A DNA stretch of 37,618 bases from positions 1-37,618 of the IMG/VR virus record IMGVR_UViG_3300020438_000112. The stretch is one strand, 5' to 3'. Below the pieces are notes generated by a model, which saw nothing but the letters and a program-made list of their open reading frames with translations, did no database searches and was not told where the DNA came from. Within the stretch, counting starts at the first letter, position 1, and the number at the start of each line of letters is the position of its first letter. The translations under genes were made by a program, and so were the position numbers. Below are positions 1 through 32,705 of the stretch, piece after piece. This DNA comes from a virus.

Positions 1-893
1 AGATCCTGCTCTTCAAGGTCATCTATATCACTTTCCCACTGGTCTTGTAGAAATGGAAGGTGAGGAGCACGACTTCCCATGTTGGGAACGTAACAATTAT
101 CATGAAGTTTTGTAATTTTATAAGACAAAAAGTTACTAAGACGTTCGAGTTGCTCTTTTTCTTGGGTTTTATCCCAAAGATCTTCCATTATGGTAACATA
201 AGTACTCTCTACACCGAATGCAGAGGCAAATTTAGTGTACACTCCGGAGAAATCACATAAAGTACTACAACAATTTTGTTTCAAAAGGTAAAAAAACAGT
301 TTTTTGTGTTTTTTCTTGCGAATGAGTAGTTTAGATTTCATATCTTCCTTATGTCCGACGGAATATTCAAATTTTTTGTTCAATAAACTACCAACTTCCG
401 AAAAATAGCGTCTTACTGGGTCACGAAATTGAAAAGTGACCTTTACATCAAAGTGTTCTCGCAATTTAGGAGCAACTTCCATCCAAAATTCATATGGAAG
501 TGCGTAATTCCCGTTTGTGAAGTCGCAAACTGCTGCATAAGTGTCTTTTACACTCTCCCAATGACTCTTCCAGTAAGAAATGTAGTTTTCTATTGATGGA
601 GGACTTGCCAAATAAGGGTCTAGCGGAGTTTTGACCGCAAATTTGTTTTTACATGATAAGTATTGACCCCAAGGATGCTGAGAAGGACGCTTGTTATATA
701 AATTTTGACCTGGAGCATATATTTCTTTAAAATGTTCTTCATATTTTGGATACTCACATAATCTTTTGAGATACCAGTTCTCTTTCAGGTGTCCCATGTG
801 TGCATATCTGTTATCAAGCGTCAAAGTATAGTGGAAGGGAGTGGTCGCTGCCCATCCTGCACCTGGATTCAATAATAGTGTTGGTTTTGACAT
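1..893 (-). CDS. Sulfotransferase-like protein, C-terminus cut by window edge
   Basis: The complement of 893 down to 1 is open for 297 codons from an ATG at 893-891 and leaves the window without a stop. It is clearly a paralog of the genes at 1074, 31797 and 32702. It shows a 5'-phosphosulfate-type loop (GAGWAATTPF, residues 11-20), HMGHLKENW (32-40), CDFTN (123-127), a 3'-phosphate-type motif FRDPVRRYFS (156-165) and a C-terminal DQWESD (284-289). These match the layout of PAPS-dependent sulfotransferases, which move sulfate from PAPS to a sugar, lipid or protein. The canonical lysine of the first loop is replaced by W14. A basic stretch (about 186-198, RKKKHKK) is an insertion the paralogs lack. 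It diverges from the small gene at 907 with only 13 nt between starts. Family assignment is by motif; the substrate is unknown. Confidence 0.72.
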   Translation of the reverse strand, partial: MSKPTLLLNPGAGWAATTPFHYTLTLDNRYAHMGHLKENWYLKRLCEYPKYEEHFKEIYAPGQNLYNKRPSQHPWGQYLSCKNKFAVKTPLDPYLASPPSIENYISYWKSHWESVKDTYAAVCDFTNGNYALPYEFWMEVAPKLREHFDVKVTFQFRDPVRRYFSEVGSLLNKKFEYSVGHKEDMKSKLLIRKKKHKKLFFYLLKQNCCSTLCDFSGVYTKFASAFGVESTYVTIMEDLWDKTQEKEQLERLSNFLSYKITKLHDNCYVPNMGSRAPHLPFLQDQWESDIDDLEEQD

Positions 894-906
894 ATATACA
901 GTAGTT

Positions 907-1074
907 ATGGTGGAACAAATGTCCTATGACGTCTACCTAGATAATGAGATTGTTTTTTCTGTATTGACAAAGATGCAAGCAGAGGAAAAACGTGACCAAA
1001 TGCAAAAAATGATCATGGCAGGATTGAAAACTGATTATACTGCCGAACAGATCTCGATCAAGTATCATTCGTAA
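907..1074 (+). CDS. Small hypothetical protein (55 aa), YDVYLD family
   Basis: A 55-codon gene. The reading frame is open upstream to a GTG at 841, but that extension lies on top of the opposite-strand sulfotransferase-like gene, so the ATG at 907 (or 919) is preferred. The protein starts with YDVYLDNEIVF and ends with ISIKYHS, with a charged helical middle. This pattern (YD[VI]Y[LV]D near the N-terminus, a Glu/Gln-rich helix, then a short strand) recurs in the small gene at 4324-4485, so the two look like one family. Its stop overlaps the start of the next gene (TAATG at 1072-1076), which suggests translational coupling to the sulfotransferase-like gene. No function recognised. Confidence 0.6.
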   Translation: MVEQMSYDVYLDNEIVFSVLTKMQAEEKRDQMQKMIMAGLKTDYTAEQISIKYHS

Positions 1075-1967
1075 TGAAACCCACCCTATTTCTGAACGTT
1101 GGAACCGGATGGTCTGGTACAACTCCTTTATATTATACATTAGGGTGGTACAATAAGTATTGCCACAGTGGGCATCGCAAAGAGAAGGGATATTTGTGGT
1201 TGATGGACTTAGCTGAGACCAGAAACACATTTGAAAGGGTCAAATTCTACAAGCAGTTCTTTGGACCTTCAAAACAATCAACTACAAACAGAAAACCGAA
1301 GATATTCACACATGAGTCAAAATATATTGGTGGTAATTGGACACCAGAGGAAATAAACTATTTTTGGAGTCCTCCATTTACGATAGAGAAGTATATTGAG
1401 TATTATGTCAAGCATTGGGACTTTATAAAACATGATTACAAGGCAGTAAGCGATTTTTCCAATCCTAACGGATTTTGCACTCCAGAATTTTTGATGAAGT
1501 ACGCTCCAGCACTCAAATCTGTGTTTGACGTAAAAATTCATGTTGTCTTCCGTGATCCATTACGCAGATTGTGGAGTTTACGTCAAAAACAAAATCCTAA
1601 AGACCCAGTTCGGCAATTTATGAAGATGGGAGTCGATTTTGGATATGTACAGTACTTTATCAAGTTTGTTGACGCATTTGGAATTGATAATTGTCATATG
1701 ACGGTTATGGAAGAATTTTGGAGAGGGGAAACAAAAGAATTGTCGGAATTCATCGACTTTGAGATAAAGGAAGTTCATCCAAACGCATATGTTCCAGATG
1801 TAGGTCCTAATGCTCCTAGAATCCAATATTTGGATGATCAGTGGGAGTCTGATATAATGCATATGCCAAAAGAGGTAAAAGACTACGGAATGAACATGCT
1901 AAAACCCGTCTATATACATTTCAAGGATTACTTCGGTGATCTTCCTGAAAAGTGGAGTACATTATGA
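1074..1967 (+). CDS. Sulfotransferase-like protein
   Basis: 297 residues, complete. The 5'-phosphosulfate-type loop is VGTGWSGTTPL (residues 9-19). It is followed by HSGHRKEKGYLW (31-42), SDFSN (126-130), and a textbook 3'-phosphate-type motif FRDPLRRLWS (159-168). DQWESD (255-260) near the C-terminus is shared with paralogs. The order and spacing fit the cytosolic-fold PAPS sulfotransferases of the heparan/NodH type. W13 stands where the family usually has the catalytic lysine; the conserved H-x-G-[HN]-x-K segment might supply a basic residue (inference). The start overlaps the preceding small gene by 1 nt and the stop overlaps the next gene by 4 nt (ATGA), so it sits in a coupled operon with the carbamoyltransferase. 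Likely role is sulfation of a glycan or other envelope molecule; the acceptor is unknown. Confidence 0.75.
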   Translation: MKPTLFLNVGTGWSGTTPLYYTLGWYNKYCHSGHRKEKGYLWLMDLAETRNTFERVKFYKQFFGPSKQSTTNRKPKIFTHESKYIGGNWTPEEINYFWSPPFTIEKYIEYYVKHWDFIKHDYKAVSDFSNPNGFCTPEFLMKYAPALKSVFDVKIHVVFRDPLRRLWSLRQKQNPKDPVRQFMKMGVDFGYVQYFIKFVDAFGIDNCHMTVMEEFWRGETKELSEFIDFEIKEVHPNAYVPDVGPNAPRIQYLDDQWESDIMHMPKEVKDYGMNMLKPVYIHFKDYFGDLPEKWSTL

Positions 1968-2107
1968 TTTGGCCATTCAACATTATCACTACATGGTGGA
2001 AACTAAGAAAGATTAGAGAAGAAGACCCGTATATTTACGAAGATGACGAATATGACGCAATGTTGGACGAAGATAACGACTATGAGGATTTGAGTGAAGG
2101 AAAATGA
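1964..2107 (+). CDS. Small acidic protein (47 aa)
   Basis: A 47-codon gene joined to both neighbours by ATGA overlaps (start 1964 inside the upstream stop; stop 2105-2107 inside the downstream start). The N-terminus is hydrophobic and aromatic (MIWPFNIITTWW), followed by a short basic patch (KLRKIR, residues 13-18) and then a strongly acidic tail (about residues 19-47, rich in D, E and Y). The bipartite shape suggests membrane-interface or partner binding, but no domain is recognised. The tight coupling between sulfotransferase-like and carbamoyltransferase genes supports it being translated. Function unknown. Confidence 0.65.
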   Translation: MIWPFNIITTWWKLRKIREEDPYIYEDDEYDAMLDEDNDYEDLSEGK

Positions 2108-3483
2108 TTGGTTTCTCCGAAGGATTCCATGATAGTGCTGTTGCGTGTGTCAGTGGCGGTATAATTACCTATGCTACGCATGGAGAACGCTTTTCAAGAA
2201 GAAAGCACGATAAAAGGTTGTGTATAGAGGCTGCTGCGATTGCGAAAGGATTAAATATCTTTGATGACGTAATATCTTTCTATGAACGACCTTTTCCCAA
2301 AAGACTACGTCAATTTACCGCAGGACAGAAGGCATGGAGACGAGATAGGGAATTATGCATGCAACCAACGCATTATTGCGAACATCACATGTCTCATGCT
2401 GCTGCTGCGTTTCAAACCAGCGTTTTTGATGAAGCAGCATGTGTGGTGGTCGATAGTATTGGAGAATGGGACTGTAGTTCAATCTGGACTGCAAAAATGG
2501 TTGATGGTAAGGCAAAATACAAAAAAGTATGGAATATGCGATATCCCAAGTCAATTGGACTGTGGTATTCCGCATTGACGAAATGGGCGGGTCTAAGACC
2601 CTTAGATGAGGAATATATCTTCATGGGTATGGCAGCGTACGGAGAAGCGAAGTATATTGACGAAGTTTCCGCATTATTACACCAAAACAACCACAAGGGT
2701 ATAAAAGACTTACATGGTGCTCCACACGACATTGCAAAGAGTGCAGAAGTGGTTTTAGAGTACGAATTGAGAAATATATTTGAAATAGCACTAACTTACT
2801 CAAATAACATCTGCTATGGTGGTGGAGTCGCCCTCAACTGCGTTGTAAACACCAAACTAAGGGAAATGTGCAATTTATGGATTATGCCGAATCCTGGCGA
2901 TGCTGGAGGTGCCTTAGGAGCAGCATTAATTCCATATGGCGGAAAAGTGCAATTCTCGCCATATGTGGGTTATAATATTCTTAAAAAACCAGATCCTAAT
3001 GAAATCGTCGCAAAACTCTTATCAGAAGGAATCGTGGGGGTTGCGAATGGCCGTGCTGAGTTTGGTCCTCGTGCTCTCGGTAATCGAAGTCTATTGGCGG
3101 ATCCACGCAAAATCTCAACAAAATCACATGTAAACGCAATAAAACGCAGACAGAAGTTCAGACCGTTCGCTCCAGCGATATTAGAAGAGTATTGTACGGA
3201 CTATTTTGAAATGCCAGCACATTCACGATATATGTCGTATGTTTATCAATGTAAACGTCCACATGACATTCCTGCGGTTCTACACGTTGATAACAGTGCT
3301 AGAGTACAAACTGTACCAGAATCATCGGAATCTATCCTCAGGGAGATCCTAGAGGTATGGTATGAACGTACAGGTTGTCCTGTCTTATTGAATACATCAT
3401 TGAACATAAGGGGTAAACCTATGGTAAATGATTTTTCTGACGCACTCAACTTCTCCGCAAAGTACCGTATTGACGTATACTAA
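2104..3483 (+). CDS. Carbamoyltransferase, NodU/CmcH/TobZ family
   Basis: 459 residues. The family transfers a carbamoyl group from carbamoyl phosphate, via a carbamoyl-adenylate, to a hydroxyl of a sugar or antibiotic. The N-terminal Kae1-like domain begins IGFSEGFHDSAVACV (2-16) with ERFSRRKHD (28-36). Metal/nucleotide-site motif EHHMSHAAAAF is at 93-103, YIFMGMAAYG at 171-180, YGGGVALNCVVN at 238-249 and PGDAGGALGAAL at 264-275. The C-terminal domain carries GRAEFGPRALGNRS (316-329), FRPFAPAI (352-359) and TGCPVLLNTSLNIRG (423-437). All key family motifs are present. It is somewhat shorter than the roughly 550-600 residues of NodU-type enzymes. It is preceded by AAGGA just before the start and is coupled to the small acidic gene. 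With a sulfotransferase-like gene and a glycosyltransferase next door, it likely decorates a glycan (inference). Confidence 0.93.
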   Translation: MIGFSEGFHDSAVACVSGGIITYATHGERFSRRKHDKRLCIEAAAIAKGLNIFDDVISFYERPFPKRLRQFTAGQKAWRRDRELCMQPTHYCEHHMSHAAAAFQTSVFDEAACVVVDSIGEWDCSSIWTAKMVDGKAKYKKVWNMRYPKSIGLWYSALTKWAGLRPLDEEYIFMGMAAYGEAKYIDEVSALLHQNNHKGIKDLHGAPHDIAKSAEVVLEYELRNIFEIALTYSNNICYGGGVALNCVVNTKLREMCNLWIMPNPGDAGGALGAALIPYGGKVQFSPYVGYNILKKPDPNEIVAKLLSEGIVGVANGRAEFGPRALGNRSLLADPRKISTKSHVNAIKRRQKFRPFAPAILEEYCTDYFEMPAHSRYMSYVYQCKRPHDIPAVLHVDNSARVQTVPESSESILREILEVWYERTGCPVLLNTSLNIRGKPMVNDFSDALNFSAKYRIDVY

Positions 3484-3498
3484 ATAACGCAGTATAAT
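3470..3498 (+). promoter_or_regulatory. Sigma70-type promoter before the glycosyltransferase gene
   Basis: TTGACG (3470-3475) and a perfect TATAAT (3493-3498) are separated by exactly 17 nt, giving a near-consensus host-type promoter with predicted start near 3505 and the ATG at 3519. The -35 box lies in the last codons of the carbamoyltransferase gene. Cyanophage early genes are generally read from host sigma70-like promoters, so this suggests early expression of the glycosyltransferase (inference). Confidence 0.6.
3480..3486 (+). promoter_or_regulatory. T4-like late promoter motif (CTAAATA)
   Basis: CTAAATA resembles the T4 late -10 element TATAAATA. The TAA stop of the carbamoyltransferase gene (3481-3483) lies inside it, and it falls in the spacer of the overlapping sigma70-type promoter, upstream of the ATG at 3519. 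Confidence 0.4.
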
Positions 3499-3518
3499 GA
3501 ATTGAAAGCGCATTCGGA

Positions 3519-4289
3519 ATGGCAAAAGGATTTAAGGTGGTTACCACTCCACCTAAAACAGATGGTACAACATCAGCAAAGACTGATGAATTTTCTATTG
3601 AAGAAGCAAGAAAATTAGTAAAGGGTAAAACTTTTATATTTTGCTTGCCTGGTAGAAACGTTTCATATATCTACCTAAAGAACTTTGTGCAACTTGCATT
3701 CGAGATTGTACAGAAGGGTGGTACACTACAAATATCACAAGACTATTCATCTATGGTGAACTTTGCCAGATGTAAGTGTCTAGGAGCAAATGTTCTCAGA
3801 GGTCCTGATCAGTTGCCATGGGATGGTAAATTGAAGTATGACTATCAGTTATGGATTGATAGTGACATCGTATTCGGTCTAGAGCAGTTCTATAGACTTC
3901 TTTGGATGGATAAGGACATAGCGGGTGGTTGGTACGTTACAGAGGACGGACAGACTACATCCTGTGCACATTGGATGGAAGAAGAAGATTTCAAAGCAAA
4001 TGGTGGTGTAATGAACCACGAGATGTTAGATGGTATACAAAAGAGAAGAAAACCATTCACATGTGACTATTCTGGATTTGGTTGGTTACTAATCAAGCAC
4101 GGTGTATTTGAGAATAAAGAAATGAAGTATCCATGGTTTGCTCCACAGATGCAAGTCTTTGACTCAGGTGAAGTACAGGATATGTGCGGTGAGGATGTTT
4201 CATTCTGTTTAGATGCACAGAAAGCAGGATATGAAATATGGGTAGATCCTAAATGTAGAGTGGGTCACGAGAAGAATAGAATAATCTAA
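3519..4289 (+). CDS. GT-A fold glycosyltransferase
   Basis: 256 residues. After a Thr/Lys-rich N-terminal stretch (1-25) the Rossmann-like core begins at KTFIFCLPGRNVSY (37-50). The metal-binding DxD motif is LWIDSDIVFG (111-120, D114/D116). GFGWLLIKHGVF (186-197) and GEDVSFCLDAQKAGYEIWVD (224-243) followed by VGHEK (248-252) are the acceptor-side acidic motif and terminal His typical of family-2-like and Anp1-like transferases. It should transfer a sugar from a nucleotide-sugar donor, metal dependent. Donor and acceptor cannot be read. It is preceded by a sigma70-type promoter and a late motif in the same 30 bp, and sits directly downstream of the carbamoyltransferase, supporting a shared glycan pathway. 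Confidence 0.8.
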   Translation: MAKGFKVVTTPPKTDGTTSAKTDEFSIEEARKLVKGKTFIFCLPGRNVSYIYLKNFVQLAFEIVQKGGTLQISQDYSSMVNFARCKCLGANVLRGPDQLPWDGKLKYDYQLWIDSDIVFGLEQFYRLLWMDKDIAGGWYVTEDGQTTSCAHWMEEEDFKANGGVMNHEMLDGIQKRRKPFTCDYSGFGWLLIKHGVFENKEMKYPWFAPQMQVFDSGEVQDMCGEDVSFCLDAQKAGYEIWVDPKCRVGHEKNRII

Positions 4290-4323: not shown

Positions 4324-4485
4324 ATGGATGACAGATACGATATCTACGTTGACGGGGTACAAACTCACGAGAGTATAACTGAGTCGGAAATGGAAGAAGT
4401 GACTCAGGATTTGGCAGACGAATTTTACGAAAACGGATGGCCACACCCCAAAGATGTAGAAGTTAGATACCTAGGACATGAGTAG
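4324..4485 (+). CDS. Small hypothetical protein (53 aa), YDIYVD family
   Basis: A 53-codon gene from ATG 4324 to TAG 4483-4485. It starts RYDIYVDGVQ, has an acidic helical middle (residues about 18-36) and ends VEVRYLGHE. The layout parallels the small protein at 907-1074 (YDVYLD start, helix, then a strand ending in I-[KR]-Y). It lies 34 nt after the glycosyltransferase and runs directly into a terminator, so it is the last gene of this transcription unit. Function unknown. Confidence 0.6.
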   Translation: MDDRYDIYVDGVQTHESITESEMEEVTQDLADEFYENGWPHPKDVEVRYLGHE

Positions 4486-4509
4486 GGTTCCGAGCGAACC
4501 CTTTTTTTT
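4484..4509 (+). terminator. Rho-independent terminator
   Basis: AGGGTTC pairs with GAACCCT around a five-base CGAGC loop (4484-4502), followed by eight T (4502-4509). It starts inside the stop codon of the small gene ending at 4485 and separates the first enzyme island from the baseplate genes. Confidence 0.9.
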
Positions 4510-4515
4510 ATGCCA

Positions 4516-4530
4516 CTAAATAGATAAATA
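4516..4530 (+). promoter_or_regulatory. Tandem T4-like late promoter motifs before gp25
   Basis: CTAAATA (4516-4522) and GATAAATA (4523-4530) lie back to back just after the terminator and 29 nt before the gp25 start. Both match the T4 late -10 element. This is the natural late promoter for the baseplate gene chain. Confidence 0.65.
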
Positions 4531-4963: not shown

Positions 4964-7017
4964 TGGCACTACAGCAATTTACAAACTTAAACTTTGAAGA
5001 TATAAAGTCATCCATAAAGGATTACCTTAGAGCAAATACTGACTTCAAAGATATGGATTTTGAAGGGTCTAACCTTTCTATCCTAATTGATATATTAGCG
5101 TACAACTCATATAGCACAGCATATAATACTAATATGGCAATCAATGAGACATTCATTGATAGTGCCACATTAAGAGAAAATGTAGTATCATTAGCAAGAA
5201 ATATAGGTTATGTTCCAAGATCTAAAAGAGCAGCGAGAGCAACTGTCAATTACAGTTTATCAGGCATAACATCTTCAACAAAACAGGTAACAATTCAACC
5301 AGGCGTAGTTGCTAATGGATCTGTATCAAATATAAATTATGTCTTCTCATTACCTGAGTCTGTGACTTTCAATGCCTTCAATGGAGCATCTAGAGGTGTG
5401 ATGGTAATATATCAAGGTCAATATATTACTAATTCGTATGTTGTAGATAATAACAATCCTAGCGAAAGATATGTCTTACCTAATGATAGTATAGACACTT
5501 CTACAATTAGTGTAAAAATAAGGAATAGTATTTCTGATAATACAACAACAAATTATGAGTTGGTAGATAACATTATAGGAGTTACATCAACATCTAATAT
5601 CTACTTATTACAAGAGACAACAGATGAGAAATACGAACTATTATTTGGTGATGATGTATTCGGTAAAAAGTTAGAGTCAGGAAATATAATTGATATTAGT
5701 TACATAAAGACTAATGGTAAAGCAGGAAATGGTGTAGAAAGTTTTAGTTTTGCTGGTCTCATAAAAGATGAAGACGGTGCTGATGAAACAGACTTTAGGA
5801 TGTTCCTTTCTGCTAATGAAAAATCCTCTAATGGTGATGAGATAGAACCAGTAGAGTCTGTCAAATACTATGCTCCACGTTTATATGCAGCACAGCATAG
5901 AGCAGTGACTGCTAATGACTATGAAGCAATAATTCCATCAATATATCCAAATATAGAATCTGTGAGTGCCTATGGTGGTGAAGATCTTGATCCTCCACAG
6001 TTTGGTAGAGTATTCATAGCAGCAAAACCAAAGAATGGTTCGTTCTTGTCAGAACTAACTAAAAAGCAATTACTTACGTCACTAAAAAATTACTCCATAG
6101 CAGGAATAGTTCCATCATTTGTGGATCTAAAATTCTTGTATGTGGAGATTGATTCATATATTTACTACAACTCAAACTTTGTAGGTGATCCTGATAATCT
6201 AAAAACAGATGTAATAACTTCATTATCACAATATGCATCAGACACTGAACTCAATAAGTTTGGTGGTAGATTCGCTTATAGTAAAGTATTGTCAGTCATA
6301 GACAATGTAGATGGTTCTATAACTTCTAACATAACTCTAGTGAAGATGCGAAGGAATATCAATACTAAGATAAACCAATTCGCACAATATGAATTATGTT
6401 TCTTAAATCAGGTGTATGCACCAAATGAGAAGTATAATATTCACTCAACTGGATTCACTGTATCTGATGTGGTTGGTACTTGTTACTTTAGTGATATAAA
6501 GACAGATGAGGACTCAGGAACACTATTCATGTTCCAGATTCTAAATGATGAAAGTATCAAGGTCATATCAAATAACTTTGGACGTATTGATTATAAGAAG
6601 GGTGAAATAGTATTAGACACAGTAAACATCGTATCTACAATAGAAGATGATGATGTTATTGAGGTCGAAGCGATACCTCAGTCTAATGATGTACTTGCTA
6701 AAAATGAATTGTTTTTACAGTTCGATATATCAAAAAGTGATTTTTACACAAGAGTGGATAGTATCTCTACTGGTGCTAATACATCAGGTTCTAGATATCT
6801 TCCAGAATCAAGTTACTTTGGAGGTAAGAAGGTAAGAGGAGCAATCATCACAAGCACCACTACAGAAACTACTTTAGTGGGATATGTGAATGGACAACCA
6901 TATTATGGAGAATTCCATGTTATGGCTGGTGGAAACAGGATGACAGGTGCAACACACACAGTTGCAAGTAAGCAGATTACTGAAACAGCACAGACAATTA
7001 GCAATAGCGGATACTAA
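4963..7017 (+). CDS. 6: Baseplate wedge protein gp6
   Basis: 684 residues versus 660 in T4 gp6. T4 gp6 forms the dimeric ring that ties the baseplate wedges together. The N-terminus (FEDIKSSIKDYLRANTDF from residue 11, then DFEGSNLSILIDILAYNSY) and RENVVSLARNIGYVPRSKRAA (residues 72-92) are the strongly conserved gp6/gpJ core. YAAQHRAVTANDYEAI (about 309-324) is the conserved second region shared with gpJ-like proteins. It follows gp25 with a TAATG overlap and leads into the next gene the same way (7015-7019). Assignment rests on motif match plus T4 gene order. Confidence 0.93.
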   Translation: MALQQFTNLNFEDIKSSIKDYLRANTDFKDMDFEGSNLSILIDILAYNSYSTAYNTNMAINETFIDSATLRENVVSLARNIGYVPRSKRAARATVNYSLSGITSSTKQVTIQPGVVANGSVSNINYVFSLPESVTFNAFNGASRGVMVIYQGQYITNSYVVDNNNPSERYVLPNDSIDTSTISVKIRNSISDNTTTNYELVDNIIGVTSTSNIYLLQETTDEKYELLFGDDVFGKKLESGNIIDISYIKTNGKAGNGVESFSFAGLIKDEDGADETDFRMFLSANEKSSNGDEIEPVESVKYYAPRLYAAQHRAVTANDYEAIIPSIYPNIESVSAYGGEDLDPPQFGRVFIAAKPKNGSFLSELTKKQLLTSLKNYSIAGIVPSFVDLKFLYVEIDSYIYYNSNFVGDPDNLKTDVITSLSQYASDTELNKFGGRFAYSKVLSVIDNVDGSITSNITLVKMRRNINTKINQFAQYELCFLNQVYAPNEKYNIHSTGFTVSDVVGTCYFSDIKTDEDSGTLFMFQILNDESIKVISNNFGRIDYKKGEIVLDTVNIVSTIEDDDVIEVEAIPQSNDVLAKNELFLQFDISKSDFYTRVDSISTGANTSGSRYLPESSYFGGKKVRGAIITSTTTETTLVGYVNGQPYYGEFHVMAGGNRMTGATHTVASKQITETAQTISNSGY

Positions 7018-10000
7018 TGATAGAAACCTCGTTATCAAGAGTCAAAATCAATGAAGTAGTTCAGAGTCAAGTACCTGAATTCATTGATGCCGATAATCCT
7101 AACTTCGGCAATTTCTTAAAACAATATTATCTCTCTCAGGAATTTCAAGGGGGATCTGTTGATATTGCTGAAAATTTAGTAGATTATAAAAGTCTAGATT
7201 TTCTAAACAATAGAAACCTAATCGGATTCACCTCACTATCTCAATATTTGAGGGGTAAGCAAGATACGATATATGTTGACTCTACAGATGGTTGGCCAAC
7301 CTCTTATGGTTTGATAAAGATTGATGATGAAATTATTACGTACACAGGAATAGGAACAACATCATTTACAGGATGTATAAGAGGATTCAGTGGTATAGAG
7401 AATAATAAGAAAACTAATAAACCAGAATATCTAACATTTACAAAAACAGGTATAGGTACACATGAGAATAATTCACGTGTACAAAATCTTAGCAGTGTAT
7501 TTTTACAAAATTTCTATAAGAAACTAAAAACACAGGTGCTACCTGGTTTTACTGAGAGAAGTTTACATGGAAAGGTTTCTAAGAGTAATTTTATAAGACA
7601 AGCAAAAGACTTCTATCGTACGAAAGGAACAGAAGAAGCATTTGAGATATTATTTGGTGCACTGTATGGTGAAAAGGTTGAGATGATTCAACCAGCAAAG
7701 TTTTTAATCAAACCATCAGATGCAGATTATATCAGGACAGAAACTATAATTGCAAAACAGGTTACAGGTGATGCTCAGTCATTATCTGGTCAAACATTGT
7801 TTCAGAACACTAATCCACAGACAAGTGGGTCGATATACAATGTAGGTAGTAGTATAATTAATGGTGAAACATATTATAGTTTCGCTATATCTGAAGGAAC
7901 AACCTTTGGAAAATTTGTCCAAAAGAATAAAACTTATGTTACATCAAGTACTCCATCTGGATCTAGTGTTATTAATGTTGATAGTACTGTGGGTTTCAGC
8001 ACCGCAGGTCAACTCTATATTGGGAACGTTTCTTACTCGTATACAGGGAAGAACTACACGCAGTTCACGGGTATAACATCTACAGCGAGTATAGGATTAG
8101 GTTCTACAATTACACAAGGAACTAATGCTTATGCATACAATAACGACTCTTTAGTACAGGTTGAGATAGTAGGATCTCTTACTAAATTCAACGGTTCTGC
8201 TCTAAATCAAGTAGAAGATAGTTCTATAAATGTAAAGACTGTTGGAAAGGAACATGATAGTCTAAGATGGTCAAGTTGGATTCATAACGTATCCCCAAAA
8301 TACAACGTAGTAACTTTCAGAGCATTATCCTCATCAAGTTATGAGTTGACTCTAAATGCAGAGCATTCATTGTACTTTGGTGATGAGATAGAGATAGTAG
8401 ATATAGATGATGTAATCCTAAATGGAACAGTTGTAGCACTATTGTCTGATACTAGAGTATCTGTAACATGTGGAACGCTATCTGAATTCAAAGAATATTT
8501 TGTAAGAAGAAAAATAAAGACTAATCTTGGTGCTTCTGCTGATATACAGAACAGTTACTCTGACTCTTTAGATAATGTATTTGTTGCCTCCAACTCTCTA
8601 CCTCACTGGACAATCAATCCACAGAAAAGAATAAGATTATTTGATACTGTCAATGAATCCTTAGGCACAACAATCAATATTGCAGATCACAATTACTATG
8701 ATGGTGATCTTGTTACTTATACAGTATCTTTAGGAAATAAACTCACCAATCTTACAGTGGGTGAGTCATATTATATAAAGAGACTTACTCCAAATAGTAT
8801 TGCTCTTGCATATACTCCTGAGAATATTAGAAGTGCAAAGTACATAACTGCATTTACATCTACAGATCTAGCATCTATCTCAATCCATAATCTTACACCA
8901 AACATTTTTTATGGTACTGAAATAGGAGCTCAGAAACTATTACGTAAATTCTCTAAACCAGAATATGCTGATGACCATGAGAAGACTAAACAGGGTGGGG
9001 TAGGTTTATTTGCTAATGGTGTAGAGATATATTCATATAAGGCAACAGACACTGTAAACTTTGGAACACTAGAAAGTGTTGATGTTCTTAACACTGGTGG
9101 AGATTATGATGTTATAAACCCTCCTAGTCTATCTGTATCACAGGTAGGACATTCTGGGGTCGGAGCATCTGTCATAGCACAAATGAAAGGAGAACTTACT
9201 GATGTTCTTGTAGAGACACCAGGTTTAGATTATTTGGAGACTCCATCAGTATCAATCGTAGGTGGAAACAATAAAGATGCAGTTGTAAAAGCAGTTATGA
9301 AAATTGCTCCAATCACATTGGAGTTTGATAGCACCTCACAAGGTGGTATTGTAAATACTGCGACTGATAGATTTGTATTCTCAGACCCTCATGGTTTTGT
9401 GGATACAGAAGAGGTTATATACACCACTAATAGTAGTACACCTATAGGTATAGGCACCACACCTGGTACATTAGTTGATACATCTCCGTACTTTGTTGTA
9501 AAAATCAACGACCACGAATTCTTCCTATCAGAGTCAAAAAATGAAGCATTGCTTGGTATAGGAACTATTCCCATATCACAGAATGGTGGTGGATTGCATC
9601 AATTAAAAACAACTCGTAGAAGACTTACCGTAGATAAAATTGGTATAGAAAATTCTGGTGCATTTTACAATAGAAGACTGGAGACCATATCAGGTATAAA
9701 CACTTATATCGATCATATCAATATTGATAGACATGGTTTTGAATCAGGAGAGAAGATAAAGTACTCCTCATCTATAGGAGCTGCTGCTGGTCTAACCAAT
9801 AACTCAGAATATTATGTTATAAAGATTGATGCAAACTCTTTCAGGTTATCAACATTACAGGATCTCTCAGATCATGTTGATGTAACATCTACAGGTAGTG
9901 GTGTACATACATTCCAAGATCCTCCCATCAATATTGTTATCAACGGTAGACAAGGAATCAGTACATTTAATGCTACAGCACAACCATTGATACGTGGTGA

Positions 10001-13000
10001 AATTATAGGAGCACATGTCAACAATAAAGGAACTGATTTTGGATCTAAAGTTATAAACGATGACTTCAAACCAGATGTTACAGCAGTCACAGGTGACAAG
10101 GCATTCTTACAACCATTCATTATCAATGGTAAGATAGATCAAATTATAATCAAGTCAGGCGGTGAGAACTTTGTTAGTATTCCTGATATTATTATTACTG
10201 GTGATGGTGTAGGAGCAAAAGGAAAAGCAGTTGTGTCTGGTGGTAAGATAATTGCAATCAATATGATTGAGAAGGGTGCAAACTATACACAGACAGCAAC
10301 AACTGTAAAGGCAGAAACACCTGGTGATGGTGCTATATTGTCATCTAACGTAAAAGAGTGGACAGTCAATCAGGTAGAGAGATATGCTAAGATAAATGAC
10401 GTCATGCCTGATGATGGATTTTATGAGGTTCAACGTGACTCTGAGTTAGGTAATCCATATGTAAATTATTATGTTCCACGTAATCTAAGAACATACTTAG
10501 GTGATAATGGTAGCGACCACTCTCCTATATTAGGTTGGGCATATGATGGTAATCCAATCTACGGTCCTCACGTTTATAAGGAATCTGATGGTGGTGGTGG
10601 ATTAGATTACATCAAGTCATCTTATGATAAGTTGACTGGTGAAAGAACTAACGGACCTTCTATTGCAGAATATCCTTCTGGATTCTTTGTAGAAGATTTT
10701 ACATACACACCTGGTAAAGGAGATCTAGATGAACACAATGGTAGATTTGGTGTAACACCAGACTATCCAAATGGAGTATATGCATACTTTACAACTGTTC
10801 AACCATCTCAAGTTGCTAATGCTGGCAACCCATTCAACCGTGCTAGAGTCCCAGTATTCCCATATGTAGTGGGTGACTCATACAAATCTAAAGTTGAACC
10901 ACTAAATCTAGGATATGATTTTGATCAAGATGTAGATCCTGTATCATACGGTTTAGTTAGAAACGTCAAACCTTACAATATCAATGATTATGAGTTTATC
11001 TCAAATTCTCAGAAGAACACAAAACTCGCTTCCAAAATCATACGTGCAAGCAGTGGTAGTGTTAGTGGAATTGATCTTATCGATGGCGGTAGCGAGTATC
11101 GTGTTGGTGACGCTCTACTATTTGATAATGAAAGAACCGATGGATTTGGTGCAATTGGATCTGTTCTCAAGATTTATGGACCACAACTCAATAATATCAC
11201 GACAACAGTACAACGGTTACCAGACACAACTTTTATATACTCTCCTGGACAGATTACAGGTATAACGACTGTACCTCATGGATTCCTAACTGGAACAGAT
11301 GTAAACATAAGAAATGTATCTGGAACCGAGCATGATGTAATACAGGGTATGCATAGAATTACAGTTCCTAGAGTATTCTCAGGAATTGCAAGTGCTATAG
11401 AAACATTAGGTGGTGGTGGCAACTCAGGTCTTACTACCAGCATCAAACTTGTTGATGATGTAAACAAATTCCAAGTAAATGATATTATCAGAATTGATCA
11501 TGAAGAGTTGAAGATATTTGGTATTGACAAATTACAGAATGAGATAGATTGTCTAAGAATACAAAATGGAACTGCTGGTACAGGACATACTGTATTCAGT
11601 AAAGTTGAGAAGTTAGTAAATGAATTTACATTCCCACTTTCAGGTTGTCCAGAAACTCCCGTAGATTATACAGTTTACTTTGATGCACCGAATGTAGTTG
11701 GTGCAGGACTCTCTGCTGGTGCTGGTATAGGGCATACTATAACAACATTAGACTTTGGTACTCGTAAGATACCAACACAAACAATCTTCTTACCAAGACA
11801 TAGTATTCAGCATGGTGAGAAACTTTCATACTCACCTGGTGCTGGTACAACTCTTACATATCAAGCACCTGGTGTTGGTACTGCATCTGGTTGGACTGCA
11901 CCCCTACCATCAGAAGTATATGGATATGTAATAGATCAAAACTTAGTGGGTATCGTAACAACTGTTGCTGGAATTAGATCATCCTCAGAAAGAGTCTTCT
12001 TCTATCCAGACCAGACTGGTATTGGTAACACACACTTCTTCCAAACTGTCAGAGGACAAATCACAGGTGATATAGACATTGTCAAGGTTACTGCTACAAC
12101 TAACGAAGAGCATACCTTGAGACCCCTTGATATCATTGACTTATCAGTGGTCTCTACTGGCACAAGTTCTCTTGCTATGTCTTATAATTCTGCTACTAGA
12201 TTTGTAAGTATAGGTTCATCTATCAACCCACTTATAAAGGTTAGAGAAGGTGACTTGTTAGAATTTGATGTTTCTGATGCTTCACTACAGAATACTAAAT
12301 TAGAGTTCTACAAAGATCAAGATTTCAAGAAGCAATTTGTAGGATCTGGTGTTTCTACTATGGAGATTACATATACAGCAGCACATGGTGAAGCTGGTGG
12401 TAAAGCATCTATAAGATTTACACCACAAGCACCTAATGTTGTATATTACAAACTAGCATCTCAGGACATATCAAAAGTTATTGAGACTAATCAAGATATT
12501 GATGATTTCACTAAGATAATTGTTATACCTAGTGAGTTTACTGGTAAGGGTACAATCAGCTCAGTGACCAGCAACTCCTTTGATTACTTTATAGATCAAG
12601 AAGCAGAAAGAGTAGGTTATACTACTAACACTGCTGTGATGTCATATACAACTAATTCACAGAATGATCATGGTCCTATAGCACAAGTGCAACTTGTGTC
12701 TGGTGGTGTAGGGTTCAAAGATATACCTCAAGTTTCAGTAGCGAGTACAACTGGTAAGTCAGCACTTGTAGAAGCAAGGGGAAATGATATTGGTAGACTT
12801 GATGAAGTCAAACTTTTAGACATTGGTTTTGATTATCCTTCTGATAAGACATTGAAACCACAGGCAGCAATGCCACAGGTTGTATTCTTAAAAGATAACT
12901 TCTCAGTTGACACTGTAGCAATTACATCTACAGGTGGTAAGTATCTAACTGCACCTGACCTTGTTCTATTCAATACTAAAACAAAACAAGAAAATAGTCT

Positions 13001-15218
13001 AACTCAATTTAGAGCAAAGTTGAGTGGATCATCAGTATCTGATGTACAGGTAATCAGTGGTGGTGGTAACTTGAGAAGTGGTGATAACAGTTTATTCTCT
13101 GTCAATAATACTAACGGTGTTGGTATTGTTACCGTCACATATAGTGCTCCTACAGTTACTGTTACACTACAGACACCAAGCACTGGATATGATGCAACTA
13201 ATCCTATACCATTCTCAATCAATGATAGAGTTTTTGTTGAGAACGTAGGTGTAACAACAGGTCATGGATACAATTCGTCAACTTATGGATATGAGTTCTT
13301 TACACTAAAAACAGTCAATCAAGCGACTGGATTAGTCAATCAAGCAACTATACAATATGATGTAGATATAGATCCTGGTAATTATGATCTTGCCACATAT
13401 GGTTCAGTATCTAATGAGAAAGATGTTGCTAAGTTTGATGTTGGTCTAAAAGAAGGTGAGTTCTTCAAAGGTGAGACTGTCATTACATCTAGAGGAAAGA
13501 TATCAAAGGTTATTACTGGAGAGGGTAAATCAAGAAACGTTCTACGTGTTGACAATATAGTTGGATTCAGTACAGGCGACAGTCTCATAGGTCAGTTATC
13601 AAATGCTGGTGGTACTATTGATAAACTAGCAGCTTATGAAGGATCATTTGATGTAGGTGTATTCCACAGTAAACCATTTGGATGGGAAAAAGATACTGGT
13701 AAATTATCTAATAGAGATCAAAGAATACAAGACAATGATTATTATCAGCAGTTTGCATATTCACTAAGATCTCAGGTTGGTATATCATCATGGGGTGAAC
13801 CAGTTGATTCACTTGCACACCCTGCTGGATTCAAGAAGCACTCTGATCTCCTTATATCATCTGTACCTGTAGGTCTTGGTAGCACTGCTAACGGTATCGT
13901 TGCCATAGGAACTGCTTCTGCATCTGTTGTTCTTATAGACGGTGAGGGTGCACTCAAGAATTATCATGACTACGATCTTGTGTACGAGAACCCTGCTCCT
14001 GACTTATCTGTAAGTAATGAAGTAGTGTTCAAGTCTACTAGATTTGATCAATCACTTGTATGTCTGACTAACCGTGTACTAGAGATAGATGATATCTCAC
14101 CACAGTTCTACTCAGATCCTAACCTATTGAGGGTTGTTGAAATTGATGCTTTTGATATTGCCAATCCTTCAGGTCCTCAAGCAATCAAATATCATGCACA
14201 GGTTGTGCTTGATGCTGCATTACAGTTAGCATATAACACAACACAGTATTGTGAATTTACTGTATTCCATAATGGATCCGATGCTTATCTCAACCAATAT
14301 TCAGACTTGTCTGACTCGTTTGATCTTGGTGAGTTTATACTCCAGCAGAATGGTAATATCATCTCTGTATCATTCAGTCCTTATAATACTACCTTGACTT
14401 ATGATGTTACTTTCTACAAGGAAATCATAGGTAAGCAGGTTAGCACAGGAACTACCTCATACTCCAACATTGTCAAGTCTGGTGTAAGTTCTGTATTTGC
14501 AGCAAATGCAAGTCCATCAACTGTGACATTAGAAGATATTGATTCAACAGAATTCAAGTCTGGTAACATCATAGTTGTTCACACTGGTGCTGATGATAAG
14601 GAGATTGAAGAATACAACTTCTTAGCAAATGGTGCTGGTATGCTATTCACTGACTTTGGTAACATGGACAGTGGAGATAAGATAGGTAATTTTGATGTTA
14701 TACAGAACGCTGGTGTAATCAAACTTAGGTATACACCTAACGCTAACACAGCAGTAACAGTACAGACATTGACCACTATGGTTGGTGTAGCAACAACTGC
14801 TACAGGTGCCAGTGTTGATAATATTGATATTGGAGACGCTCAGTTGCATGCAACTAGAACAGAGATATCTGCTTCTGGTAGTCCTTCAGAAACAACCTTA
14901 TCAACTAAGTCTTATAATAACTTTACATCATTCAAGTATTTTGTAGAAATACATAATACTACTGACAGTAAGTATTCTTGCTTCAATGTGGCAGCGAATG
15001 CTTTTGATAGTCGTATCAACTTCAACGTTTATAATAATCTGTCTACAGCAGATAATGCGAAACGGGACATACGTGCTATAAACATGGTTGCTAGTGGCAA
15101 CAATGCACTCTTAAGATTTACTCCAGCAGCAAGCAAAGCATATGTTGTGAGAGTTTCTGAAATAAGAATAGACAAACCAGATAACGTCGCAGACGACAAC
15201 ACGATAACACTCAGCTAA
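7017..15218 (+). CDS. Giant baseplate/virion structural protein with YHYH domain (gp7 position)
   Basis: 2733 residues, the largest gene here. It sits where T4 has gp7 (1032 residues), between gp6 and gp8, so it may be the cyanophage wedge counterpart; sequence alone does not prove this. The N-terminal region (1-65) is non-repetitive. Beta-rich modules follow: IDDEIITYTG...RGFSG (about 103-125), repeats of the type HGF-x-[ST]GE...YYVIKI-x-x-N-x-F (about 777-967), and GG-x-x-Y-x-x-P repeats resembling beta-helix or adhesin strands. A YHYH domain spans about 1145-1275 (ILGWAYDGNPIYGPHVY at about 1171-1187, later a GFF-x-EDFTY strand, D-x-NGR and TP-x-YP-x-G-x-YAYF). Its size suggests a peripheral baseplate or fibre-attachment role. 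Coupled by TAATG at both ends. Confidence 0.8.
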   Translation: MIETSLSRVKINEVVQSQVPEFIDADNPNFGNFLKQYYLSQEFQGGSVDIAENLVDYKSLDFLNNRNLIGFTSLSQYLRGKQDTIYVDSTDGWPTSYGLIKIDDEIITYTGIGTTSFTGCIRGFSGIENNKKTNKPEYLTFTKTGIGTHENNSRVQNLSSVFLQNFYKKLKTQVLPGFTERSLHGKVSKSNFIRQAKDFYRTKGTEEAFEILFGALYGEKVEMIQPAKFLIKPSDADYIRTETIIAKQVTGDAQSLSGQTLFQNTNPQTSGSIYNVGSSIINGETYYSFAISEGTTFGKFVQKNKTYVTSSTPSGSSVINVDSTVGFSTAGQLYIGNVSYSYTGKNYTQFTGITSTASIGLGSTITQGTNAYAYNNDSLVQVEIVGSLTKFNGSALNQVEDSSINVKTVGKEHDSLRWSSWIHNVSPKYNVVTFRALSSSSYELTLNAEHSLYFGDEIEIVDIDDVILNGTVVALLSDTRVSVTCGTLSEFKEYFVRRKIKTNLGASADIQNSYSDSLDNVFVASNSLPHWTINPQKRIRLFDTVNESLGTTINIADHNYYDGDLVTYTVSLGNKLTNLTVGESYYIKRLTPNSIALAYTPENIRSAKYITAFTSTDLASISIHNLTPNIFYGTEIGAQKLLRKFSKPEYADDHEKTKQGGVGLFANGVEIYSYKATDTVNFGTLESVDVLNTGGDYDVINPPSLSVSQVGHSGVGASVIAQMKGELTDVLVETPGLDYLETPSVSIVGGNNKDAVVKAVMKIAPITLEFDSTSQGGIVNTATDRFVFSDPHGFVDTEEVIYTTNSSTPIGIGTTPGTLVDTSPYFVVKINDHEFFLSESKNEALLGIGTIPISQNGGGLHQLKTTRRRLTVDKIGIENSGAFYNRRLETISGINTYIDHINIDRHGFESGEKIKYSSSIGAAAGLTNNSEYYVIKIDANSFRLSTLQDLSDHVDVTSTGSGVHTFQDPPINIVINGRQGISTFNATAQPLIRGEIIGAHVNNKGTDFGSKVINDDFKPDVTAVTGDKAFLQPFIINGKIDQIIIKSGGENFVSIPDIIITGDGVGAKGKAVVSGGKIIAINMIEKGANYTQTATTVKAETPGDGAILSSNVKEWTVNQVERYAKINDVMPDDGFYEVQRDSELGNPYVNYYVPRNLRTYLGDNGSDHSPILGWAYDGNPIYGPHVYKESDGGGGLDYIKSSYDKLTGERTNGPSIAEYPSGFFVEDFTYTPGKGDLDEHNGRFGVTPDYPNGVYAYFTTVQPSQVANAGNPFNRARVPVFPYVVGDSYKSKVEPLNLGYDFDQDVDPVSYGLVRNVKPYNINDYEFISNSQKNTKLASKIIRASSGSVSGIDLIDGGSEYRVGDALLFDNERTDGFGAIGSVLKIYGPQLNNITTTVQRLPDTTFIYSPGQITGITTVPHGFLTGTDVNIRNVSGTEHDVIQGMHRITVPRVFSGIASAIETLGGGGNSGLTTSIKLVDDVNKFQVNDIIRIDHEELKIFGIDKLQNEIDCLRIQNGTAGTGHTVFSKVEKLVNEFTFPLSGCPETPVDYTVYFDAPNVVGAGLSAGAGIGHTITTLDFGTRKIPTQTIFLPRHSIQHGEKLSYSPGAGTTLTYQAPGVGTASGWTAPLPSEVYGYVIDQNLVGIVTTVAGIRSSSERVFFYPDQTGIGNTHFFQTVRGQITGDIDIVKVTATTNEEHTLRPLDIIDLSVVSTGTSSLAMSYNSATRFVSIGSSINPLIKVREGDLLEFDVSDASLQNTKLEFYKDQDFKKQFVGSGVSTMEITYTAAHGEAGGKASIRFTPQAPNVVYYKLASQDISKVIETNQDIDDFTKIIVIPSEFTGKGTISSVTSNSFDYFIDQEAERVGYTTNTAVMSYTTNSQNDHGPIAQVQLVSGGVGFKDIPQVSVASTTGKSALVEARGNDIGRLDEVKLLDIGFDYPSDKTLKPQAAMPQVVFLKDNFSVDTVAITSTGGKYLTAPDLVLFNTKTKQENSLTQFRAKLSGSSVSDVQVISGGGNLRSGDNSLFSVNNTNGVGIVTVTYSAPTVTVTLQTPSTGYDATNPIPFSINDRVFVENVGVTTGHGYNSSTYGYEFFTLKTVNQATGLVNQATIQYDVDIDPGNYDLATYGSVSNEKDVAKFDVGLKEGEFFKGETVITSRGKISKVITGEGKSRNVLRVDNIVGFSTGDSLIGQLSNAGGTIDKLAAYEGSFDVGVFHSKPFGWEKDTGKLSNRDQRIQDNDYYQQFAYSLRSQVGISSWGEPVDSLAHPAGFKKHSDLLISSVPVGLGSTANGIVAIGTASASVVLIDGEGALKNYHDYDLVYENPAPDLSVSNEVVFKSTRFDQSLVCLTNRVLEIDDISPQFYSDPNLLRVVEIDAFDIANPSGPQAIKYHAQVVLDAALQLAYNTTQYCEFTVFHNGSDAYLNQYSDLSDSFDLGEFILQQNGNIISVSFSPYNTTLTYDVTFYKEIIGKQVSTGTTSYSNIVKSGVSSVFAANASPSTVTLEDIDSTEFKSGNIIVVHTGADDKEIEEYNFLANGAGMLFTDFGNMDSGDKIGNFDVIQNAGVIKLRYTPNANTAVTVQTLTTMVGVATTATGASVDNIDIGDAQLHATRTEISASGSPSETTLSTKSYNNFTSFKYFVEIHNTTDSKYSCFNVAANAFDSRINFNVYNNLSTADNAKRDIRAINMVASGNNALLRFTPAASKAYVVRVSEIRIDKPDNVADDNTITLS

Positions 15219-31073: not shown

Positions 31074-31277
31074 ATGGATCCACAAGTACAAGAGATGCAA
31101 CAATTATTGCAGATCTATATCAGACGTTTGAATGAAGAAACATCAAGGTCAATAGCATTTGAAGCAAGAATAGTGCAATTGATAAATCAGATAAATGCTA
31201 TGCAACCACAAGGTAAGGATGCTGGTGATTTTGCAGCACCTAAAAAAAGTGTAGGGAGAGGTAAAACAAGTAAGTAA
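31074..31277 (+). CDS. Small coiled-coil protein (67 aa)
   Basis: 67 residues from ATG 31074; the frame is open further upstream but that part lies in the fibre gene and across the terminator. The protein is a long helix (VQEMQQLLQIYIRRLNEETS, then FEARIVQLINQINAMQ) with heptad hydrophobics, followed by a basic low-complexity tail (KKSVGRGKTSK). There is no ribosome binding site because the T-tract abuts the ATG. It is coupled to the methyltransferase by TAATG (31275-31279). Function unknown; similar short coiled-coil proteins accompany cyanophage fibre genes. Confidence 0.6.
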   Translation: MDPQVQEMQQLLQIYIRRLNEETSRSIAFEARIVQLINQINAMQPQGKDAGDFAAPKKSVGRGKTSK

Positions 31278-31807
31278 TGGACTCGTATTTTAATGGAATC
31301 TGGAAAGACACGAATTATCAATTTCTTAAGTATAGCGGCTATAGTCTGGTCGATTACGTTAATAATCAAAGACCTGATAGCGTCCTAGATGTAGGATGTG
31401 GTTACAATAGACTCAAGGGAAAGATACGCAATCTCATAGGAATAGACCCCTATAATGATTGTGCTGATATGAAAATATCTTTAGAAACTTTGGTATCAGA
31501 TCCTACAGATCCCATATATGAGAATACTGCATTTGATATAGTGTTGTGTCTAGGTTCTATAAATTTTGGAAACGAGAAGAATATTGATAACCAACTGAGG
31601 TTATTGCATCCATTGTTTAAAAAAGAAATGATATTCAGAGTGAATCCTGGTATACCGCATAAAGGTGTGGAAGGTATTGAATGGTTTGGGTGGTCACAAA
31701 AAAAGATATACTCAGTTGCAAGAAAATATAATTATGTTGTAAAAGATCTAAAGATGGAATACACAGAACAAAACGACCTTAGATATTATTTCGTATATGC
31801 CAAATAA
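31277..31807 (+). CDS. Class I SAM-dependent methyltransferase
   Basis: 176 residues, small for the class. SAM-binding motif I is SVLDVGCGYNRLKG (35-48), followed by the acidic ribose-binding strand LIGIDPYNDCADM (53-65) and motif IV-like FDIVLCLGSINFGNE (86-100). The C-terminal half has W-rich GIEWFGWSQKKIYSVARKY (133-151). It should transfer a methyl group from SAM; substrate cannot be read. It overlaps the preceding small gene by 1 nt and the following sulfotransferase-like gene by 11 nt, which indicates one operon. A NodS/O-methyltransferase-like sugar role is possible but unproven. Confidence 0.8.
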   Translation: MDSYFNGIWKDTNYQFLKYSGYSLVDYVNNQRPDSVLDVGCGYNRLKGKIRNLIGIDPYNDCADMKISLETLVSDPTDPIYENTAFDIVLCLGSINFGNEKNIDNQLRLLHPLFKKEMIFRVNPGIPHKGVEGIEWFGWSQKKIYSVARKYNYVVKDLKMEYTEQNDLRYYFVYAK

Positions 31808-32705
31808 AATACCATTTCTAATGAATGGAGGAGTATCCTTCGCTGCTACCACACCATTGTGGTACACATTGCAGTGGGATAATAAGATATGTCATACTGG
31901 CAATCGAAAGAAGACTCACTGGTTGACTATTCTACAGTTCATGGAAGCAGAGAAGTATGGTTATAAAGAATACGTAGATCAAAACGGTAGGACATGGCAC
32001 GATTGGGCAGAGAAGCATCAGAACACACCTTATGAGGAACCATCTACATCAAAACCAGCATTTCTACAGAAGTCAACTTTTACACTAGAAGAGGAGATAG
32101 AGTTATACTCATTACCAACATCTCTTGACAAGTATATTGAATATTTTACAAGACACTATCATAATCTGAACGGTGAGTACAAGTATGTCGCTGATTTTTC
32201 TAATAAAATCTGCTGTTTACATCCAGAGTTCTTGATGGATATACGTGACAAAATGTTAGAAGCATTTGATATCAAAGTCACTTTGATGTTTAGAGATCCT
32301 GTTCGTAGGATATGGTCTAATTGTAAATGTAATATGGATATGGTATTTCGTAAAGGATCTGATAAAAAACCACAGTGGCACTATGATAAGATGTATCAAA
32401 ATCATGTAGATGCATGGGGTGAAGAGAATGTTTATCCTGTTATTATGGAGGATGTGTGGCAAGATACCAGTGGATTAGCAGACTTCTTAGATGTAAAGAT
32501 TGATAAGATGCATAGGAATTGTTACTGGCCAGAGATGGGAATAAACATACCAAAATATCAATGGTTGAAAGATCAATGGCAATGGGAATCAAACCCTGTG
32601 CCATATGATTACCTAAGGGAAAGGTTAGATTTTCTGTATGTAAATTTTGAAAAGAAATTTGGGTACATACCTAAGGAGTGGCGTAAACGAGAATTTGATA
32701 TATGA
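31797..32705 (+). CDS. Sulfotransferase-like protein
   Basis: 302 residues, paralog of the genes at 1, 1074 and 32702. Loop GGVSFAATTPL (11-21), HTGNRKKTHWL (33-43), VADFSN (131-136), FRDPVRRIWS (165-174), CYWPEMG (242-248) and KDQW (258-261). S14/F15 occupy the place where canonical enzymes have Lys. Compared with 1074, the middle (about 55-100) is lengthened by a hydrophilic stretch. It overlaps the methyltransferase by 11 nt and the next paralog by 4 nt (ATGA). Likely uses PAPS or a related sulfate donor, with unknown acceptor. Confidence 0.75.
   Translation: MPNKIPFLMNGGVSFAATTPLWYTLQWDNKICHTGNRKKTHWLTILQFMEAEKYGYKEYVDQNGRTWHDWAEKHQNTPYEEPSTSKPAFLQKSTFTLEEEIELYSLPTSLDKYIEYFTRHYHNLNGEYKYVADFSNKICCLHPEFLMDIRDKMLEAFDIKVTLMFRDPVRRIWSNCKCNMDMVFRKGSDKKPQWHYDKMYQNHVDAWGEENVYPVIMEDVWQDTSGLADFLDVKIDKMHRNCYWPEMGINIPKYQWLKDQWQWESNPVPYDYLRERLDFLYVNFEKKFGYIPKEWRKREFDI

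Follow-up and report, generated by a model that had tools for sequence, protein, structure and literature searches.

Why would a cyanophage carry a carbamoyltransferase gene and sulfotransferase-like genes beside its baseplate genes? The question is raised by one end of IMGVR_UViG_3300020438_000112, a 37.6-kb virus record analyzed over its whole length (positions 1–37,618; hereafter, the window), in which cyanomyovirus baseplate genes are present. A sequence-only reading of this DNA had placed a carbamoyltransferase (CT), two sulfotransferase-like genes (ST1 and ST2) and a glycosyltransferase (GT) in one island, and supposed that it decorates a glycan of the virion or of the host envelope. We propose, tentatively, that ST1, ST2 and CT may well form a variable cassette for glycan decoration, which in one cyanomyovirus lineage sits as an insertion upstream of the core genes GT, gp25 and gp6. 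Surface-glycan decoration is the best explanation for the association of CT with the sulfotransferase-like genes, with a putative target and chemistry and a predicted acceptor. The genes concerned are arranged as follows.

3 to 893, minus strand: ST1, a sulfotransferase-like paralogue, divergent from its neighbours, its 3' end lost at the contig edge (297 amino acids remain; full-length relatives have about 325)
919 to 1074, plus strand: small1, a conserved open reading frame (ORF) of 51 amino acids whose stop overlaps the start of ST2 (TAATG)
1074 to 1967, plus strand: ST2, a sulfotransferase-like paralogue of 297 amino acids, assigned with AlphaFold/Foldseek and the family profile
1964 to 2107, plus strand: small2, an acidic ORF of 47 amino acids linking ST2 to CT, with an ATGA overlap at each end
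2104 to 3483, plus strand: CT, an O-carbamoyltransferase of the NodU/TobZ/NovN type, 459 amino acids, assigned with Pfam and PHROG

The CT and GT loci compared here were sampled by similarity to the window genes and so describe the wider lineage of the window rather than cyanophages at large. Within this lineage, genes of the sulfotransferase-like family lie upstream of CT in 45 of the 50 CT loci whose upstream sequence reaches 3 kb or more, in one to six copies each (0–6 over all), and in 28 of these 50 loci a family gene is found within 300 nucleotides of CT. The expectation that carbamoyltransferase and sulfotransferase-like genes are conserved together has thus held; independent occurrence in relatives, which would have spoken against a shared function, was seen for GT and not for the other two. 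A third partner is suggested by an SGNH/DUF6071-like gene, recognized by sequence similarity in 66 of the 72 CT loci; one copy scores above its Pfam cut-off (41 versus 27 bits), the other tested copies being weaker. Probably, this gene is the missing partner just beyond the window edge. Examples of such SGNH-hydrolase/DUF6071-like genes are L067:10524-11300 (minus strand), L075:2897-3598 and L073:10093-10737.

Gene order is kept in 27 relatives (67–100% identity), as far as each contig reaches, and the ratio of nonsynonymous to synonymous substitution (dN/dS), where dS was computable, is 0.11–0.28 for ST1/ST2 (0.11–0.15 for ST2) and 0.03–0.15 for CT/GT. Together, the kept order and the range of 0.03–0.28 rule out chance or spurious ORFs. 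The overlap coupling claimed for the island proved correct for three junctions, made through small1 and small2, two ORFs that the claim had overlooked: TAATG at 1072–1076 (small1/ST2), ATGA at 1964–1967 (ST2/small2) and ATGA at 2104–2107 (small2/CT). ST1 and GT remain outside this chain, the GT start lying 35 nucleotides past the CT stop; strand, spacing and a promoter of GT's own rule out a single operon running from ST1 to GT.

What kind of proteins are the sulfotransferase-like ones? The window encodes four of them (ST1–ST4), mutual paralogues, the others being 31–39% identical to ST2. No significant Pfam match was obtained for any of the four on its own, and Sulfotransfer_3 is matched by 9 of 48 family members (best 3e-10). 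An AlphaFold model made from an alignment of 46 members (A4) had a pLDDT of 91.8 and a pTM of 0.91. Its Foldseek matches, with 3rnl at the top (4.3e-7), the olefin synthase sulfotransferase 4gox in second place, and TPST-2, NDST and 3-OST further down, reached a probability of 1.00 but TM-scores of only about 0.5; the family profile matched 3rnl at 6.5e-9. Based on this modelling, the family is predicted to have the sulfotransferase fold. Family and fold evidence thus back the two sulfotransferase-like genes proposed earlier, with the reservation that ST1 is a minus-strand gene truncated by the end of the contig.

In sulfotransferases, the P-loop lysine (Lys48 in SULT1E1, Lys614 in NDST1) is catalytic. 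Aligned without gaps, the P-loop of the phage family reads G-x-G-W-S-[GA]-T-T against G-x-x-[KR]-x-G-T-[TS] in homologues. Among 89 distinct N-termini, the Lys/Arg place is taken by W (59), F (16), H (9), Y (4) and, once, K, whereas K or R is found there in all nine cyanobacterial homologues examined. Sulfotransferase activity is therefore not to be assumed. The 3'-phosphate site R(x7)S, in contrast, is intact (R160 in 46/46 and S168 in 45/46 members), and K36 and H31 are near-invariant. Compared with enzymes dependent on 3'-phosphoadenosine-5'-phosphosulfate (PAPS), such as PF13469 proteins, heparan sulfate 3-O- and N-sulfotransferases, TPST and 3rnl, the family shares the fold, the R..S and KE motifs and the conserved P-loop Thr/Ser; it differs in the aromatic or His residue of the P-loop, in H31 and in having several copies per phage. 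The usual catalytic residue has changed, and His31 or Lys36 may perhaps have taken over from it.

The family is, judging from the searches made, large and confined to phages. Its profile has no match in 13 named phage genomes (including P-SSM2, S-SSM7 and S-SRM01) and does match AG-345-D19, a psbA-bearing single-virus genome, whose contigs are the only matches of ST2 in a phages collection of 50,697 records. Tandem arrays occur in IMG/VR: G009 has seven or eight genes in a row, G008 has six or seven, and G010 has six. Within one tandem array, we also noticed a 2-oxoglutarate (2OG)-Fe(II) oxygenase gene (L073:4301-4804, minus strand; PF13640, 1.6e-8). In the tree, 46 phage proteins are split from the four included cyanobacterial rows with support of 100/98, and ST1, ST2, ST3 and ST4 appear to be old, separate orthologous groups under purifying selection. 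A recent gain from a bacterial host was ruled out: GTDB genome contigs, scanned with a pattern, yielded no relative, 1 of 41 genomes of one Prochlorococcus-type genus gave a weak generic match (1.3e-9), and other cyanobacteria hold only distant generic sulfotransferases (best 5e-20). We found no description of the family in the open-licence papers searched.

The assignment of CT was confirmed by both Pfam domains, Carbam_trans_C (8.8e-54; 182 bits versus a cut-off of 27) and Carbam_trans_N (2.5e-33; 116 bits versus 24), and by its best PHROG, phrog_1601, a phage 'Nol-like carbamoyltransferase' (8.3e-89). Relatives with solved structures are NovN, GdmN and TobZ. Like NodU, TobZ, NovN and GdmN (PF02543 plus PF16861), CT has both domains, a Kae1-like part with HHxxH and GGG, and YrdC-like C-terminal motifs, although it is about 100 amino acids shorter than TobZ. 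The motifs HHxSHA, GGG and EFGPRALGNRS are conserved; H94-H95-x-S-H98, G239-G241 and D266 are invariant across nine divergent copies and align with NovN/GdmN. In Kae1-like domains, HxxxH is the metal site, and GGG and DAG are further conserved motifs. The closest relative is the CT of Marine virus AG-345-D19 (65.6% identity), and full-length matches in named phages do not exceed 38.7%, the best being C48C1 and S-SSM5 (30.7–38.7%), so that CT is a divergent branch.

The remaining part of the proposed island, GT, is followed by signals that part it from the baseplate block, and the features concerned, read like all expression signals here from sequence only, are these.

3470 to 3498, plus strand: sigma-70-like promoter of GT, TTGACG-N17-TATAAT, scoring 11/12, conserved upstream of GT
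3519 to 4289, plus strand: GT, a GT-A-like glycosyltransferase (phrog_1574), adjoining gp25
4324 to 4485, plus strand: small3, a conserved small ORF between GT and gp25
4484 to 4502, plus strand: intrinsic terminator with a 7-bp stem and a T run, between the island and the baseplate block
4516 to 4530, plus strand: late-promoter-like CTAAATAGATAAATA of gp25, with ATAAATA at this place in 28/28 loci

GT matches phrog_1574 at 3.7e-109, and its D114-S-D116 (DSD) motif is invariant in 26 copies. The model reached a pLDDT of only 64.5, and its Foldseek list was topped by the GT-A proteins LH3, COLGALT1, GpgS and GlfT2, all weak (E 1e-4). Membership of GT in the cassette was ruled out: 72 of 73 GT loci carry gp25, while among the 53 with at least 2 kb of upstream sequence, CT is found in only 27 and a sulfotransferase-like gene in 9, never without CT. 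GT is present in all 71 CT loci with enough downstream sequence, and it stands near gp25 in S-SSM7, S-SRM01, Sf-FS3, P-SSM2 and P-TIM68 with neither ST nor CT there. Since GT occurs near gp25 without them, as cultured Synechococcus/Prochlorococcus phages show, ST and CT are the unit and GT is the older neighbour, an independent and widespread cyanophage gene. Collagen-type glycosylation of hydroxylysine, hinted at by the LH3/COLGALT1 matches and by the 2OG oxygenases that neighbour GT in P-SSM2, was also considered; a detectable 2OG gene occurs in only 1 of 72 CT loci, and such glycosylation is therefore not tied to the ST-CT cassette.

A sigma-70-like promoter scoring at least 10/12 lies 20–60 nucleotides upstream of GT in 78 of 91 distinct loci (shuffles average about 8). 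The terminator between GT/small3 and gp25 was recovered by a simple scan in 33 of 91 loci besides the window. The cyanophage late motif NATAAATA (PMC2984593) precedes gp25 in 28/28 loci and was found before none of ST1, ST2, CT or GT in the loci tested. Co-transcription of the island with the baseplate genes is thus not supported, as a terminator and then a late promoter come in between. ATAAATA occurs six times in the window, always on the plus strand (4524, 18082, 27109, 33603, 35721 and 37411), which is fewer than in shuffles (mean 14); five of the six sit 29–56 nucleotides before genes, namely, gp25, gp8-like, fibre-assembly, ferritin-like and fibre 2, and these motifs look like real late promoters. 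In the baseplate block itself, the large protein of phrog_2885 (4179 amino acids) is represented by two overlapping ORFs, 7017–15218 and 15218–18085.

Two further family members lie far from CT, next to a tail-fibre gene. This second island, which the sequence-only reading had tied to the first, did turn out to share the family with it, and ST3 and ST4 are present in several relatives as well.

31277 to 31807, plus strand: MT, a probable S-adenosylmethionine-dependent methyltransferase (Methyltransf_23, E 0.006, under the cut-off)
31797 to 32705, plus strand: ST3, in the fibre block, a sulfotransferase-like paralogue and the third of the family
32702 to 33610, plus strand: ST4, likewise in the fibre block, the fourth of the family

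A fifth family member was seen in the region of L072:8924-9421, at about 108.6 kb in G001, the closest long relative of the window, and some 65 kb away from the second island. The window has other genes nearby that deserve mention. Two paralogous P-loop proteins (34286–34906 and 34899–35687, both on the minus strand; GPQGSGNHL, 39% identical) are encoded between fibre genes; neither has a PHROG or NCBIfam match, the second has no PDB or phage-collection match either, and the pair is possibly another sulfotransferase-like family. The protein encoded at 33634–34308 (plus strand), downstream of a late-promoter motif, has two ExxH di-iron-like motifs and no relative in the phages collection.

As to the host, G013 overlaps G001 at 99.9% and carries the start of psbA, and AG-345-D19 carries the full gene; both psbA sequences are closest to those of Prochlorococcus (88% for the fragment and 95%, respectively), and Prochlorococcus is probably the host. 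AG-345-D19 is read as a single virus particle because the AG-345 wells come from an extracellular sort gate (PMC6122165). An APS (adenosine 5'-phosphosulfate) kinase was found in 10 of 12 host-type genomes and in none of six phage contigs tested. With no such kinase in these six contigs, phage-made PAPS was rejected; the hosts can, judging from their genomes, make it.

How might the cassette work? CT would turn carbamoyl phosphate and ATP into carbamoyl-adenylate and then carbamoylate a sugar hydroxyl, as expected from its enzyme family. The sulfotransferase-like proteins would bind PAPS supplied by the host and use it to sulfate hydroxyls of this acceptor or of one related to it, perhaps with a specificity that differs from paralogue to paralogue, and the SGNH-hydrolase-like partner may strip off or relocate acyl groups. 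Relatives differ in how many sulfotransferase-like genes they carry and in which ones, while CT, GT and gp25 are kept, as would suit a trait on which selection keeps shifting. Although we hold this choice with some doubt, the likeliest target is a precursor of an envelope polysaccharide of the host, altered in the cytoplasm while infection proceeds; tail fibres come second and seem somewhat less likely.

Several observations weigh against this picture. ST3 and ST4 lie within the late fibre block, a search for a conserved sigma-70 promoter found none for ST1 or for ST2-CT, CT has fibre genes close by in S-SSM5 and P-RSM4, and the catalytic Lys/Arg is replaced in 88 of 89 family members. The fibre-related observations would suit enzymes that act, directly or via glycans, on tail fibres or on other virion proteins exposed to the outside, and thereby shield the virion or tune adsorption. 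ST3, ST4 and MT directly follow a fibre gene, an arrangement repeated in G001 and L058; family genes are also near fibres in L060 and AG-345-D19, and the CT of C48C1 is near the tail-lysozyme hub gene. The place of ST3 and ST4 leans towards a virion target. However, the CT genes of S-SSM5 and P-RSM4 are on the strand opposite the fibres, and a terminator parts ST1, ST2 and CT from the baseplate genes; the lack of a late-promoter motif before these three in all loci tested leans mildly towards a host target. Overall, we regard virion decoration as possible but on the unlikely side.

The replaced P-loop residue admits another scenario, in which the family kept the fold and not the chemistry: its members would bind a ligand, be it a 3'-phosphoadenosine nucleotide or something else, and transfer some other group, or serve as binding or decoy proteins, for instance, against a nucleotide-based host defence. 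The preserved 3'-phosphate site and the K/R of the cyanobacterial homologues agree with it, but the other active-site motifs (KE, R..S) are strongly conserved, selection is purifying and the partnership with CT is constant, which makes it improbable. More improbable still is a cassette that acts on some small host molecule or lipid rather than on a surface polymer. The CT relatives TobZ, GdmN and NovN do act on antibiotics, and some cyanobacterial sulfotransferases act on acyl chains, as 4gox does, yet no biosynthetic core gene lies nearby, and zero to six sulfotransferase-like genes accompany the same CT.

Returning to decoration of surface glycans, it is worth comparing the cassette with known systems. 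For the lipopolysaccharide (LPS) gene clusters of P-SSM2 and S-SSM7, a role in changing the host surface and keeping other phages out has been proposed (PMC2984593, PMC3037559), and the superinfection idea was put forward earlier for the P-SSM2 LPS genes (PMC2984593). The cassette is alike in being phage-encoded surface-glycan chemistry of T4-like cyanophages with the same superinfection hypothesis attached; the genes and the locus differ, and P-SSM2 and S-SSM7 lack the ST family. A Sulfotransfer_3 gene, whose function the authors called unclear, is known from Synechococcus phage S-SRM01 and OM43 phages (PMC10580990). It, too, is a phage-encoded member of the sulfotransferase superfamily, and S-SRM01 has a PF13469 match, yet nothing in S-SRM01 matches our family profile. 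Likeness to Nod factor decoration, suggested by the sequence-only reading, does not extend beyond the chemistry: carbamoylation by NodU and sulfation by NodH are the same pair of reactions, but no Nod backbone genes were seen, the host is a cyanobacterium, there is no orthology, and CT fails the NCBIfam NodU equivalog (132 bits versus a cut-off of 1000).

It is tempting to suppose, although we consider this speculative, that a phage-only family of sulfotransferase fold with a changed active site has grown into arrays of up to about seven diverged paralogues that occupy a fixed locus next to CT and an SGNH-like protein, as a variable decoration repertoire that tracks changing host surface glycans. 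Uncultured cyanophages carry this large family beside a carbamoyltransferase at a variable locus, outside the 13 named phage genomes checked, and its altered P-loop opens the enzyme mechanism to testing. If the enzymes act on surface glycans, they would offer a genetic handle on the contest between cyanophages and picocyanobacteria over the cell surface.

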